A stretch of DNA of 64,000 nt, from positions 62,001-126,000 of the forward strand of contig NZ_BBXE01000028.1 of assembly GCF_001570565.1 (NCBI RefSeq). Direction: 5' to 3'. Below the pieces are notes generated by a model. It was given only the letters and a program-made list of their open reading frames with translations, was not told the origin of the DNA and did no database searches. Below, piece by piece: positions 21,812 to 38,686 of the stretch. Position 1 is the stretch's first letter. Each line of letters begins with the position of its first letter. The DNA comes from Herbidospora yilanensis. GTDB taxonomy: Bacteria; Actinomycetota; Actinomycetes; Streptosporangiales; Streptosporangiaceae. The position numbers and the translations under genes were made by a program.

Positions 21812-21942
21812 GAGTAGACCCTAGATTGCCGACGGGCCCACCCGCCAATGGAGATTCGGTAACGAATTGAGTAAGTAGCTCGCACAGTGGGGCTATTCCG
21901 TGTTGTGCGAATCAGATCAATTCGCATTACTCTGGACAAAGA

Positions 21943-22038
21943 CGCGCGGGAGTCCGGCTGACCGGGCTGAGAGGGGAACTCCACAGGTTCCCGACCGCTA
22001 TCGAACCTGATCCGGATCATGCCGGCGAAGGGAGCGCG
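21943..22038 (+). ncRNA. TPP riboswitch (THI element)
   Basis: Contains both conserved THI-box halves: GGGCTGAGAGG on the pyrimidine-sensing arm and CGAACCTGATCCGGATCATG followed by CCGGCGAAGGGA on the other. The ends CGCGC (21943-21947) and GCGCG (22034-22038) can pair as P1. The thiO ribosome site GAAGGGAG lies inside the 3' part, and no terminator follows, so TPP should block translation initiation. TTGTGC/TTACTC with an 18-bp spacer upstream is a possible promoter. Confidence 0.95.
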
Positions 22039-22039
22039 G

Positions 22040-24063
<2,024 letters not shown>

Positions 24064-35634: not shown

Positions 35635-36246
35635 CTAGGGCGGGCCCTCGCCCGGGTCCTCCTGGTATGAGTAGCGCTGCTCCCGCCAGGGGTCGGCGAC
35701 GTTGTGGTAGCCCCGGTCCTCCCAGAAGCCGCGCCGGTCTTCGGTCAGGTATTCGATGGCGCGCACCCACTTGACGCTCTTCCAGGCGTACAGATGGGGG
35801 ACCACGGCCCTGACGGGGTGCCCGCGCTCGGGGCTGAGCGGCTTGCCGTCGAGCTCGGTCGCGAAGAGGGTCGAGTCGCGGTCGAAGTCGCTCATGCGGA
35901 CGTTGGCGCTGTAGCCGTATTCGGCCCAGATCATCACGTGGCCGACCCCGGCGGCGGGCGGCACGGCGGCCAGGAACGCCGACGCGGGCACGCCGGTCCA
36001 CTCGTTGCCCATGATCGAGAACTTGGTCACGCAGTGGAAGTCGGCCAGCACCGTCGAACGCGGCAACTGGCCGAAGTCGTCCCAGGTCAGGTAGTGCTGC
36101 TCGCCGGACGCGGTGGCGCCGAAGATCTGCAGGCGCCAGGTCGCGGGCCGGAACGTCGGCACCCTGCCGTAGTGCATCACGGGCCTGCCGCGCGGGACGT
36201 ACTGCCCCGGGGGCAGCCGGTTCTCCTCCTCGGGCGTCTCCGGCAC
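35635..36246 (-). CDS. Sulfite-oxidase-like molybdopterin enzyme
   Basis: 203 residues of the oxidoreductase molybdopterin-binding domain. The molybdenum-ligand Cys is in ADFHCVTKFSIMGNEWTGV, followed by the substrate/cofactor loop AEYGYSANVRMSDF and GHPVRAVVPHLYAWKSVKWV. There is no signal peptide or TAT motif and no dimerisation domain, so it is probably cytosolic and short compared with true sulfite oxidases. Substrate unknown. GTG start. Pairs with the LytTR regulator. Confidence 0.88.
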   Translation of the reverse strand: MPETPEEENRLPPGQYVPRGRPVMHYGRVPTFRPATWRLQIFGATASGEQHYLTWDDFGQLPRSTVLADFHCVTKFSIMGNEWTGVPASAFLAAVPPAAGVGHVMIWAEYGYSANVRMSDFDRDSTLFATELDGKPLSPERGHPVRAVVPHLYAWKSVKWVRAIEYLTEDRRGFWEDRGYHNVADPWREQRYSYQEDPGEGPP

Positions 36247-36297
36247 CCGCCCATCCTGTCACCCGCCCCGCGGTGCGCCCGCATCAGGGTTGTGCGA

Positions 36298-36303
36298 TAT
36301 ATT
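36298..36303 (+). promoter_or_regulatory. -10 element of the aroF leader transcript
   Basis: TATATT, a near-perfect -10, ends 6 nt before the leader-peptide ATG at 36310. Transcription should begin at or next to that ATG, making a leaderless leader-peptide mRNA. Confidence 0.6.
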
Positions 36304-36309
36304 TCGACC

Positions 36310-36381
36310 ATGCTTGGCGCAGTCTCGTTTTGGTATGGCGACGGACCCGTGAGGACCGTTCGCCATGAGGTTGTGCACTAG
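36310..36381 (+). CDS. aroF attenuator leader peptide with Phe-Trp-Tyr
   Basis: A 23-residue open frame MLGAVSFWYGDGPVRTVRHEVVH. Codons 7-9 are TTT-TGG-TAT, one for each aromatic amino acid, directly upstream of the gene for the first enzyme of aromatic synthesis. It begins 6 nt after TATATT. A 17-bp terminator hairpin follows 15 nt after its stop and precedes aroF. Stalling of the ribosome at Phe, Trp or Tyr codons would be expected to change folding and prevent termination (classical attenuation). Too short for most gene callers. The function is inferred from layout; I recall no exact precedent. Confidence 0.75.
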   Translation: MLGAVSFWYGDGPVRTVRHEVVH

Positions 36382-36395
36382 CAGCCACAGGCGGT

Positions 36396-36435
36396 CGAAA
36401 AGCCCCGGGTCCGATCTAGGACCCGGGGCTTTTCG
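36396..36435 (+). terminator. Attenuator terminator before aroF
   Basis: Perfect 17-bp stem (arms 36396-36412 and 36419-36435, core AAAAGCCCCGGGTCC) with loop GATCTA and a TTTT run within the 3' arm. It lies between the leader peptide and the aroF ribosome site AAGGAG, so it would end transcription before aroF. A competing hairpin CGCC...GGCG spanning 36361-36394 is possible. Confidence 0.85.
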
Positions 36436-36452
36436 CGTGTTAAGGAGAAATC

Positions 36453-37487
36453 ATGGTCATCGTCATGGCCCCTGAGGCCACCCAGGAAGACATCACCGAG
36501 GTCGTCGCGCTCGTCGCGTCGGCGGGTGGTGAGGCGTTCGTGTCCCGCGGCGTGAACCGCACGATCATCGGGCTGATCGGCGACGTTGAGCAGTTCGCCA
36601 GCCTCAACCTCCGCGGTCAGCGCGGCGTCGCCGACGTGATGCGCGTGTCCACCCCCTTCAAGCTCGTGAGCCGCGACAACCATCCCGTGCGGTCGACGGT
36701 CCGGGTGGGCGGGGTGCCGATCGGGCCCGACACGGTCACCCTCATCGCGGGGCCGTGCGCGGTCGAGACGCCGCAGCAGACCCTTGAGGCCGCCGAGATG
36801 GCCAAGGCCGCCGGGGCCACCCTGCTGCGCGGCGGCGCGTTCAAGCCGCGCACCTCGCCGTACGCCTTCCAGGGCCTCGGCGAGCAGGGGCTGCGCATCC
36901 TGGCCGACGTCCGGGAGAAGACCGGGCTGCCGATCGTGACCGAGGTGGTCGACGCCCATGACGTGCCGCTCGTGGCGTCGTACGCGGACATGCTGCAGGT
37001 CGGCACCCGCAACACGCAGAACTTCGCGCTCCTGCAGGCGGTCGGCGCGGCCGGGAAGCCGGTCATGCTGAAGCGCGGCATGAGCGGGACCATCGAGGAG
37101 TGGCTGATGTCGGCCGAGTACATCGCCCAGCGCGGCAACCTCGACATCGTGCTCTGCGAGCGCGGCATCCGCACCTTCGAGACGGCGACCCGCAACACCC
37201 TCGACGTGTCGGCGGTGCCGGTGGCGCAGCGGCTCTCCCATCTGCCGGTGATCATCGACCCGTCCCACTCGGGCGGGCGGCGCGACCTGGTGCTGCCGCT
37301 CACCCGGGCGGCCGTCGCGGTGGGCGCCGACGGCGTGATCATCGACGTCCACCCGCACCCCGAGCAGGCGCTCTGCGACGGCCCGCAGGCCCTGGTCGAC
37401 GGTGACCTGGAGGAACTGGCGAGGATCATGCGGAACTTCGCCCCGCTGATGGGCCGCACCCTGGCCGGTGAAGCGGTCGCGGTGTAG
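36453..37487 (+). CDS. aroF: 3-deoxy-7-phosphoheptulonate synthase, class I-beta with N-terminal ferredoxin-like domain
   Basis: Condenses PEP and erythrose 4-phosphate, opening the shikimate pathway. 344 residues: an N-terminal ferredoxin-like/ACT-like regulatory domain (about 1-70, VIVMAPEATQEDITEVVALVASAGGEAFVSRGVNRTIIGLIGD), as in the Thermotoga enzyme where it mediates Tyr inhibition, and the barrel with metal Cys102 in LIAGPCAVET, GGAFKPRTSPYAFQGL, VLKRG-type PVMLKRGMSGT and PVIIDPSHSGGRRD. ATG with AAGGAG 8 nt upstream, just after the attenuator. Class I-beta is less usual here than the class II enzyme of Streptomyces and mycobacteria. Confidence 0.95.
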   Translation: MVIVMAPEATQEDITEVVALVASAGGEAFVSRGVNRTIIGLIGDVEQFASLNLRGQRGVADVMRVSTPFKLVSRDNHPVRSTVRVGGVPIGPDTVTLIAGPCAVETPQQTLEAAEMAKAAGATLLRGGAFKPRTSPYAFQGLGEQGLRILADVREKTGLPIVTEVVDAHDVPLVASYADMLQVGTRNTQNFALLQAVGAAGKPVMLKRGMSGTIEEWLMSAEYIAQRGNLDIVLCERGIRTFETATRNTLDVSAVPVAQRLSHLPVIIDPSHSGGRRDLVLPLTRAAVAVGADGVIIDVHPHPEQALCDGPQALVDGDLEELARIMRNFAPLMGRTLAGEAVAV

Positions 37488-37498
37488 CCTCCGCCCTC

Positions 37499-38686
37499 GT
37501 GGCGTTTTCGGGGGATCTTTACCGCAACAAGAATTTCGTTCTCCTGCTCGGTGTTCAGACGTTGTCCGTGCTGGGCGACGCGTTCTCGACCGTGGCGGTG
37601 CCGCTGCTGGCGCTGCACGCGACCGGGTCCGTCGCCCAGATGGGCGTCCTCACCGCGCTGACGGGCGTCGCCTCCGTCGTGACCGGCACCTTCGCCGGAG
37701 GCATCGTCGACCGGTTCGACCGGCGGCGGGTGCTGGTCGTGTGCGACGTCGGCCGTTTCCTCCTGTACGGCCTGATCCCGGTCCTGTGGTGGGCGACACC
37801 GGCGATCTGGCCGCTCTACGTGATCGTCCCGCTGGCGGCCGCGCTCGGCATGGTCTTCAACGTCGCCTATGTGACCGTCCTGCCGTCGATCGTCGACCCG
37901 GGCGACATCACCCGGGCCAACGGCGTCCTGTACGGGGTCTTCGCCGTCGCGGGGGTGGCGGGCCCCGCCCTGGCGGGCGTGGTCTCGGGCGGGTACGGCC
38001 CGGCCGCCGCGATCGGGCTGGATTCGGTGACCTTCCTGATCTCCGCTTTCGGGCTGCGGTTCATCCGGCTGCGGCCGTACCGGAAGGAGGAGACCGGCGG
38101 CCGCCTCGCCGGAGCCAGGTTCCTGCTCGGGAACCCGGTGCTGCGGACCATGACGATCCTGCTCACCGCGCTCATCTTCCTCACGGCCGGGCTCGACGAC
38201 CTGGTCGTCTTCCACCTCAAGCAGAACCTGGAACAGGCCGACGCGGTGGTCGGCTATGTGCTGGGCGTGGGCGCGATCGGCACGATCATCGCATCGATGG
38301 CGGTGGCGCGGGTGCGGAAACGGCTCGGGTTCGGGCCGACGTGGTTGCTCTCGACCACCCTGGCGGGGCTGGCGGTGGTGGTCATCGGGCTCTCGCCCGG
38401 CGTGGCCGGGATCGGGGCGCTGATGGCGCTGTTCAGCCTGGCGATCACGGTCGGCGCGATCTGCTCGATGTCGCTGCGCCAGGAGATCACCCCGGCCCAC
38501 CTGCTCGGCCGGGTGACGGCCGCGTTCTGGACCATCCACTTCGCCCTGGGGCCGCTGGGGGCGACCCTGGCGACGTGGACGGCGGCCGGGCAGGGCGTGG
38601 CGCCGGTCGTGACCGTGATGGGGGCCGGGCTGCTGCTGACCGCGCTGGGCGGGGCGTTCAGCCCGGTCAGGCGGTCAGGTCTCTAG
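37499..38686 (+). CDS. MFS transporter
   Basis: 395 residues, about 11-12 TM helices. The N-half has FVLLLGVQTLSVLGDAFSTVAVPLLAL and the GGIVDRFDRRRVLVVCDVGRF loop typical of the enterobactin-exporter/MFS_3 type, and a middle loop of basic residues (LRPYRKEETGGRL). GTG start 12 bp after aroF; cotranscription with aroF is possible, which would put it under the attenuator. Substrate unknown. Its last 12 bp overlap the convergent thiI. Confidence 0.9.
   Translation: MAFSGDLYRNKNFVLLLGVQTLSVLGDAFSTVAVPLLALHATGSVAQMGVLTALTGVASVVTGTFAGGIVDRFDRRRVLVVCDVGRFLLYGLIPVLWWATPAIWPLYVIVPLAAALGMVFNVAYVTVLPSIVDPGDITRANGVLYGVFAVAGVAGPALAGVVSGGYGPAAAIGLDSVTFLISAFGLRFIRLRPYRKEETGGRLAGARFLLGNPVLRTMTILLTALIFLTAGLDDLVVFHLKQNLEQADAVVGYVLGVGAIGTIIASMAVARVRKRLGFGPTWLLSTTLAGLAVVVIGLSPGVAGIGALMALFSLAITVGAICSMSLRQEITPAHLLGRVTAAFWTIHFALGPLGATLATWTAAGQGVAPVVTVMGAGLLLTALGGAFSPVRRSGL

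Follow-up and report, generated by a model that had tools for sequence, protein, structure and literature searches.

Consecutive Phe, Trp and Tyr codons in a probable transcription attenuator upstream of a class I-beta DAHP synthase gene of actinomycetes

Introduction

Three end products depend on the enzyme at the entry of the shikimate pathway, and the way in which their supply is reported to a single gene is mostly told in terms of repressors and allostery. A locus of Herbidospora yilanensis raises the question of whether one short leader peptide could report all three. In the window, by which we mean the whole stretch of 64,000 nucleotides analysed here (contig NZ_BBXE01000028.1, positions 62,001 to 126,000), a frame with Phe, Trp and Tyr codons in a row is found upstream of aroF, encoding a DAHP synthase. 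In the trp and pheA attenuators of E. coli, the leader carries codons for the end product, antiterminator and terminator are alternative folds, and the position of the ribosome decides between them. These systems are also covered in PMC11802643; this and the other papers given here by PMC number were available to us in part, and statements on them are limited to those parts.

An earlier note on this DNA proposed that shortage of any of the three charged tRNAs is sensed through a leader peptide translated from a leaderless mRNA. It took runs of one amino acid to be the usual form of such leaders; mixed leaders have a precedent in ilvL of Streptomyces lividans (PMC8079986).

Results

The leader, the hairpin and the start of aroF

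The following features were assigned at the window locus.

36298-36303, + strand: -10 hexamer TATATT, read directly
36310-36381, + strand: leader peptide frame MLGAVSFWYGDGPVRTVRHEVVH including its stop codon, read directly
36328-36336, + strand: regulatory codons TTT-TGG-TAT (Phe7, Trp8, Tyr9), read directly
36396-36435, + strand: putative terminator hairpin with a perfect 17-bp stem and a 6-nt loop, read directly
36442-36447, + strand: Shine-Dalgarno sequence AAGGAG of aroF, read directly
36453-37487, + strand: aroF, class I-beta DAHP synthase (344 aa), assigned by NCBIfam and Pfam
37499-38686, + strand: MFS transporter gene, 11 nt downstream of aroF and a possible co-transcript, only in Herbidospora among the loci searched

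The leader frame opens with the ATG at 36310, 6 nt past TATATT, and runs for 23 codons to the TAG at 36379-36381, with the three aromatic codons at 36328-36330 (TTT), 36331-36333 (TGG) and 36334-36336 (TAT). The hairpin arms, CGAAAAGCCCCGGGTCC (36396-36412) and GGACCCGGGGCTTTTCG (36419-36435), form 17 of 17 pairs around the loop GATCTA. At the 3' end four Ts lie inside the stem, followed by the tail CGTGTTAA, and the U-tract is short (CTTTTCG); because of these four Ts inside the stem, the hairpin was not listed in a scan for consensus terminators. Frame, codons, perfect hairpin and aroF ribosome site, all described in the earlier note, were thereby read again directly. The consensus scan for promoters returned no sigma-70-type promoter and no -35/-10 match at the leader. 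A leaderless transcript, starting at or next to 36310 with TATATT as -10 hexamer, is predicted. With no more than 17 nt between the hairpin and the aroF ATG (36453), transcription is unlikely to start 3' of the leader.

AroF scores above the cut-offs of NCBIfam NF006421 and TIGR01361, contains the Pfam domain DAHP_synth_1 and a ferredoxin-like domain, and reaches 626.6 with the BagF/FevY exception model, under the cut-off of 700. Among 202 loci longer than 2 kb, the MFS neighbour is confined to Herbidospora (the window genome and six others), and the MFS gene therefore lies outside the conserved unit. The suggestion that this gene shares the control of aroF is thus possible for Herbidospora, but finds no counterpart elsewhere in these loci.

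Several side observations concern the surroundings. A divergent gene for a molybdopterin-domain protein (35635-36246, - strand) seems, by eye, to start a few nucleotides past a CAGGAT hexamer (within 36220-36280), and both divergent transcripts, this one and that of the aroF leader, may be leaderless judging from their starts. The stretch CCATCCTG (window 36220-36280, - strand) was seen again by eye 5' of leaders in relatives. Many leaders of family f1 (e.g. L027, L028, L030) have, by eye, GTGCG[CT]TA or ATGCG[CT]TA just 5' of the -10 hexamer or overlapping it, which could be an extra promoter element. At the leader, Rfam gave no match at gathering score, the weak matches (E 0.045 to 3.4) lying far below the gathering scores, and a T-box, a riboswitch or another Rfam cis-regulator was rejected there on this basis. 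The only Rfam match above gathering score in the window is a TPP riboswitch (RF00059) at 21936-22050 (+ strand).

Conservation of the leader

Sixty related genomes were searched for aroF, of which 51 matched at E <= 0.001. All upstream regions of family aroF genes with a full-length match were read, and each had an aromatic leader and a hairpin (35/35); G021, with only a weak match, and G035, with aroF in two pieces, were left out of this reading. In a class-wide sample, class I-beta genes were identified in 79 of 197 genomes at E <= 1e-100, and 78 upstream regions were taken (without G368), of which those of L025 and L044 were too short, leaving 76 usable. The leader was called in 37 of the 76, with a strict terminator call in 24 and without one in 13, and no leader was called in 39. 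Among these 39, L070 and L075 display by eye the hexamer, a sub-threshold frame with F and Y, and a hairpin. Four false positives of the aromatic scan that lack the TANNNT hexamer (L045, L099, L113, L117) were dropped from the counts.

By family, in our own numbering, the class-wide sample has the leader throughout in f1 (16/16), f26 and f40 (2/2 each) and f4, f10, f29 and f33 (1/1 each), and partially in f28 (4/6), f16 (5/9), f30 (3/5) and f22 (1/2); no I-beta leader was found in its members of f11 (6), f13 (3), f21 (15), f31 (2) and f14, f19, f23 and f37 (1 each). The families with a leader number 11 in this sample and 12 in all, with f3 added from the relatives. Aromatic codons and terminator are hence conserved upstream of aroF orthologues far beyond the genus, in line with the comparison that the earlier note had suggested.

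Within the first 13 residues, 61 of 69 distinct leaders contain F, W and Y, and eight only F and Y. The peptide cores with Trp include FWYGDGP, FWFWYGDGP, FWFWYGYRP, FWRFYGYRP, RWFFYCGRPG, RWFGYFTGSG, YYWFTDGAS, SWFFGYYRPG and GWFYFYGVGS, and those without Trp in the cluster TYFFGHLPG, RFFSYGDAP and RFYFYGDRP. A C-terminal LR-stop is common to most leaders of the family. This shared end would suit a TnaC-like arrest peptide, sensing free aromatic amino acids in the ribosome and not tRNA charging. We regard such a peptide as highly unlikely: the residues around the cluster and at the C-terminus vary among families (YGDGP, YGYRP, YFTGSG, HLPGAP), and the stop region is part of the apical hairpin predicted for the antiterminator, a possible reason for conservation at the level of the RNA.

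A TANNNT hexamer is placed 6-8 nt 5' of the start codon in 73 of 73 accepted leaders, where the hexamer itself aided the choice of start, and this supports the leaderless translation proposed earlier. Together with the conservation at the level of codons, the spacing also favours a leader that is transcribed and translated. A hairpin follows 72 of the 73 according to a loose caller, mostly of the GCCCCGGG type; L047, without a terminator call, was left out of the 72-row folding and z tables.

Searching the genome contigs with the 20-base motif TTYTGGTAYGGCGACGGNCC returned 109 stretches, 94 of them followed by an aroF start at a distance of at most 400 nt. The remaining 15 comprise six that carry the leader at a locus ending too early or holding a partial aroF, and nine at other places. 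A related pattern is present in 108 of 297 genomes of the order. G176:C11 was rejected as an extra copy of the motif, being in unrelated sequence. As a side observation, one of the nine is a decayed copy of leader and terminator, with the start codon lost and the hairpin arms diverging, in Acrocarpospora macrocephala (L120, also L144; G246:C46), where it precedes a frame that by eye resembles an ArsR-type regulator.

In a chance check on both strands of the 64-kb window, two frames of 12-39 codons start with ATG or GTG 6-8 nt past a TANNNT hexamer, and only the leader is aromatic-rich. In 106 loci from the motif search (1.65 Mb, both strands), the FWYGDG leader is present in 93, and the other aromatic-rich frames of the same kind number five, all at L241, a locus without aroF. 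A chance frame between the divergent promoter and an ordinary terminator would explain why the window hairpin is unlisted in the terminator scan and why there is no consensus promoter; it is hardly credible in view of these background counts and the conservation in 12 families, as well as the codon bias and covariation described below.

Codon choice

The leaders use codons that the genes themselves avoid. For Phe, the 69 distinct leaders have 76 TTT and 52 TTC, compared with 0 TTT and 76 TTC in 13 family aroF genes; for Tyr, the leaders have 61 TAT and 44 TAC, and the same genes 3 TAT and 57 TAC. Seven neighbouring frames of the window contain 1 TTT, 63 TTC, 3 TAT and 34 TAC. It appears that the rare TTT and TAT are placed where the ribosome is to wait.

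Pairing between leader and terminator

Four further segments, which could form competing helices, were defined in the window.

36337-36344, + strand: R1, GGCGACGG, complementary to 36356-36364 as seen in the sequence; ON-OFF gap data
36342-36349, + strand: R1', CGGACCCG, pairing with the terminator 5' arm at 36406-36413 (outer helix of the antiterminator); covariation and swap tests
36356-36364, + strand: R2, CCGTTCGCC, able to pair with either R1 or R3; predicted folds and R2 x R3 swap test
36390-36394, + strand: R3, GGCGG, pairing with UCGCC at 36360-36364 inside the antiterminator; predicted folds and swap test

If free of the ribosome, R1 would pair with R2 as an anti-antiterminator. The stretch 3' of the aromatic cluster complements the terminator 5' arm and changes along with it. 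Codons 12-13 form all six pairs with the arm, G-U allowed, in 118 of 129 distinct leaders matching the GGC-NAC frame, and the change is compensatory, with GGA-CCC/GGGTCC in 92 of the 129 and CGG-CCC/GGGCCG in 15. Other families pair with other letters, namely GGCTCCGAG/CTCGGAGCC, CCCGGGGCTC/GAGCCCCGGG and CGGGGCCT/AGGCCCCG.

When the arms of 69 leaders were swapped, uncorrected for relatedness, none of 2000 permutations reached the native complementarity of leader and terminator; the control segment, the 21 nt before the start codon, had no signal (1251 of 2000). The sole control for relatedness was a set of 12 representatives of 11 families, picked by hand with one per family and two in f1. 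Out of 100,000 permutations of this set, the native value was reached by 0 for the whole region and by 73 for R2 x R3, two tests in which the segments are of unequal length, by 36 for R1 x T5, where T5 is the terminator 5' arm, and by 131 for the contiguous helix score. For three of the 12 (L042, L073 and L094), the native arm is not a better partner than the majority of the foreign arms, L073 ranking 8 of 12 and L094 12 of 12 by contiguous helix. Duplex z values against shuffled leaders average -2.09, with 66 of 72 below -1 and L021 above 0.

A trp-like layout, with R2:R3 alone as the antiterminator, was rejected for the main helix: R3 is in most cases directly adjacent to the terminator and, judged partly by eye, R2 of the GYRP type is not complementary to the arm, whereas codons 12-13 are.

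The pairing also bears on the idea that translation or RNA stability is the target of the leader, or that the switch is an RNA binding a metabolite or tRNA. There is reason to consider this in actinomycetes, as mutations of leader codons of ilvB in Streptomyces coelicolor are reported to have had no effect, and the results on leuA to disagree with classical attenuation (PMC1262725). At the present locus we consider it very unlikely: the hairpin is upstream of the Shine-Dalgarno sequence, its arm covaries with leader codons, and Rfam has no match at gathering score at the leader.

Ribosome position and predicted folds

Waiting of the ribosome was modelled by mask folding, in which the RNA is cut off 16 nt 3' of the first base of the codon in the P site, and only the part from there to the terminator loop is folded. 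For the window, this predicts a capture of T5 by upstream RNA of 0.98 at Phe7, 0.87 at Trp8 and 0.57 at Tyr9 and codons 10-11. Capture falls to 0.01 at codon 12, recovers to 0.27-0.42 over codons 15-22 and ends at 0.04 with the ribosome on the stop codon; in this model, then, it does not fall in one clean step where the aromatic codons are. Across 72 leaders, capture at the first aromatic codon averages 0.87 and exceeds 0.5 in 72 of 72, and at the last aromatic codon, which in GYRP leaders is the Tyr of GYR, it averages 0.40 and exceeds 0.5 in 37 of 72. At the stop codon the mean is 0.11, with values above 0.5 in 2 of 67 leaders. The ON-OFF energy gap of the window is minimal with the ribosome at Ser6/Phe7, over the 5' part of R1, and in 63 of 72 leaders the minimum is a plateau that includes an aromatic codon, a figure that comes without a null model. 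Codons for the end products stand in the leader frame, and covariation and mask folding, both computational, find a mutually exclusive antiterminator that depends on the position of the ribosome.

By residue, capture is 0.82 for F (n = 131), 0.83 for W (82) and 0.53 for Y (108, the Tyr of GYRP included). Together with the window values at codons 7 to 9, this agrees with the same attenuator serving in practice as a sensor of Phe (and Trp), Tyr9 being too near the antiterminator arm and its codon conserved for other reasons. AroR of Corynebacterium glutamicum has likewise been reported to respond to limitation of Phe and not of Tyr (PMC11802643), and the lack of Trp in 8 of 69 leaders would make Trp dispensable too. 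We consider such a sensor quite possible, if somewhat short of probable, as a Tyr codon is found within the first 13 residues of all 69 distinct leaders, with TAT (61) exceeding TAC (44), and as Tyr comes first in some leaders (e.g. L014, L031, L081), where capture, as at the first aromatic codon of all 72, is above 0.5. The earlier proposal that shortage of any of the three tRNAs is sensed is thus supported, but probably not with equal weight; the attenuator is probably weighted towards Phe and Trp over Tyr.

At equilibrium, even with the ribosome at Phe7, the full hairpin of the window lies 21.7 kcal/mol below the antiterminator. As the finished terminator is more stable, the decision would have to fall while the RNA grows, i.e. 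by kinetic antitermination. Without a ribosome T5 is still captured, at 0.93 in the window (truncated transcript) and at a mean of 0.66 across leaders, so that the folds predict the gene to be ON after loss of leader translation, unlike in the E. coli trp paradigm.

Class I-alpha, I-beta and class II isoenzymes

The window genome encodes a class II DAHP synthase and has a single PF00793 match, which is aroF; the I-alpha query found no match there at 1e-60. As a side observation, six other Herbidospora genomes (G001-G006) have a second PF00793 gene beside I-beta, and the window genome (G000) only the one. In eight family genomes, no aromatic leader was found at the class II DAHP synthase genes.

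I-alpha genes were identified in 36 of 197 class genomes at 1e-60, 30 of them with loci, and in 21 of the 30 loci an aromatic leader stands behind a TANNNT hexamer (e.g. MTNRWYAYFSLALEGPASN and MVEIRWYWRFTSAPGGAGGQTR). Ten of these leaders have F, W and Y and 11 have F and Y, and I-alpha leaders with hairpins are found in families f5, f38, f21 and f6 (L273-L302, L265/L269). In 33 genomes both class I isoenzymes are present with both upstream regions read, and the leader is never before both. In the window's family, the leader of 18 such genomes stands before I-beta, with none before I-alpha, the second gene in 10 of the 18 being taken as I-alpha on a PF00793 match alone. In f21, 15 genomes have no I-beta leader, and the I-alpha leader was called by the scan in 14, with a weaker SSYF frame in G417. 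Since members of one family are not independent, this exclusivity represents two patterns and not 33 events.

T5 capture at the first aromatic codon is 0.00-0.13 in the 21 I-alpha leaders, compared with the mean of 0.87 in the 72 I-beta leaders, and reaches up to 0.77 at a later Phe. The capture pattern of the I-beta leaders, by which they differ from these I-alpha leaders of other actinomycetes (AroR not among them), is therefore not automatic. Either the RNA of the I-alpha leaders works differently, or the folding model misses their antiterminator. The enzyme controlled by AroR in C. glutamicum is presumably of class I-alpha, and the window leader would differ from AroR-type aroF leaders in preceding a class I-beta gene. 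Tentatively, actinomycetes might share one mode of regulation, in which the supply of Phe, Tyr and in most cases Trp is read with unequal weight by a leaderless peptide, attached to whichever class I DAHP synthase is regulated; the function of the attenuator would then be conserved, with different RNA folds, and the enzyme exchanged.

Discussion

Based on conservation, codon bias, covariation and predicted folds, which support the aromatic attenuator before the DAHP synthase gene as first noted, we propose that the aroF leader is very probably a ribosome-mediated transcription attenuator; leader transcription start, translation, termination and starvation response are what we infer from sequence. 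Transcription would start at or next to the leader ATG, and a ribosome would load on the leaderless 5' end. With Phe-, Trp- and Tyr-tRNA charged, the ribosome would pass codons 7-9, covering and melting the region able to capture the terminator 5' arm. On reaching the leader stop codon, the ribosome is expected to cover R3 as well, allowing the hairpin at 36396-36435 to form and RNA polymerase to halt before aroF. A shortage of charged Phe- or Trp-tRNA would hold the ribosome at codon 7 or 8, where it lies over the 5' part of R1 and leaves R1' (36342-36349) wholly or partly free and R2 wholly free. R1' and R2 could then form a nested antiterminator with the terminator 5' arm and R3, letting polymerase read into aroF. 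The effect of Tyr codon 9 is predicted to be weaker, because a ribosome there already covers most of R1'.

The closest known system is the AroR-aroF attenuator of C. glutamicum, reportedly described by Neshat et al. in 2014. AroR is an aromatic leader peptide with Phe-Tyr-Phe before aroF (PMC4046766, PMC7356990, PMC11802643), and stalling under Phe limitation raises expression, Phe but not Tyr limitation being reported as effective (PMC11802643). The window leader is likewise a short aromatic leader upstream of an actinobacterial DAHP synthase gene, but has Phe-Trp-Tyr, whereas AroR, in the available parts of these sources, has no Trp. As AroR is already known, the window attenuator is to be seen as a variant. 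Within the literature searched, what is new is the three-amino-acid form, seen in 12 families, together with the covarying switch and the isoenzyme exclusivity in 33 genomes; no Phe-Trp-Tyr leader on a class I-beta aroF was found described there, most subscription papers lying outside this search.

With E. coli trp and pheA the proposed attenuator shares end-product codons, alternative folds and a decision by ribosome position. It differs in combining three end products in one leader, in its leaderless start, and in an antiterminator strand within the leader frame, directly 3' of the regulatory codons, with nested capture of the terminator arm. Leaderless transcripts, short leaders and hairpins are also seen in S. 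lividans, where trpL1, ilvL and leuL are leaderless leaders and ilvL mixes codons of several amino acids, but none of the eight leaders in the available part of that study controls a DAHP synthase gene (PMC8079986). The uORFC-13-1 motif, proposed for Acholeplasma and unassigned environmental sequences, similarly consists of an upstream frame with at least one Phe codon, followed by a terminator and aroF; unlike the window leader it has a ribosome binding site, and the available text makes no mention of Trp or Tyr codons (PMC8632094). Attenuation of a DAHP synthase gene has been proposed as well for aroF of E. coli and Shewanella, sensing Tyr-tRNA (PMC2659441, citing Camakaris 1980), but this concerns gammaproteobacteria and Tyr only, with no three-amino-acid leader in the part of the source available. 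Cysteine-rich upstream frames of mycobacteria are likewise actinobacterial frames proposed as nutrient sensors; they use cysteine, however, and the accessible portion of the paper describes no competing hairpin (PMC4633059). For operons of phenylalanine or tyrosine, a 2005 survey of actinobacteria, as far as available, did not find a conserved RNA element (PMC1262725).

In conclusion, one leader reading three tRNAs in a row, shared by numerous families of actinomycetes, would integrate three supplies in a compact and testable manner, and its codon order directly predicts the weights of Phe, Trp and Tyr. Many antibiotics of actinomycetes derive from aromatics, and the leader would therefore also be a handle on precursor supply. 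If the exclusivity of I-alpha and I-beta leaders is true, it would allow the regulated DAHP synthase of an actinomycete to be read from its sequence.
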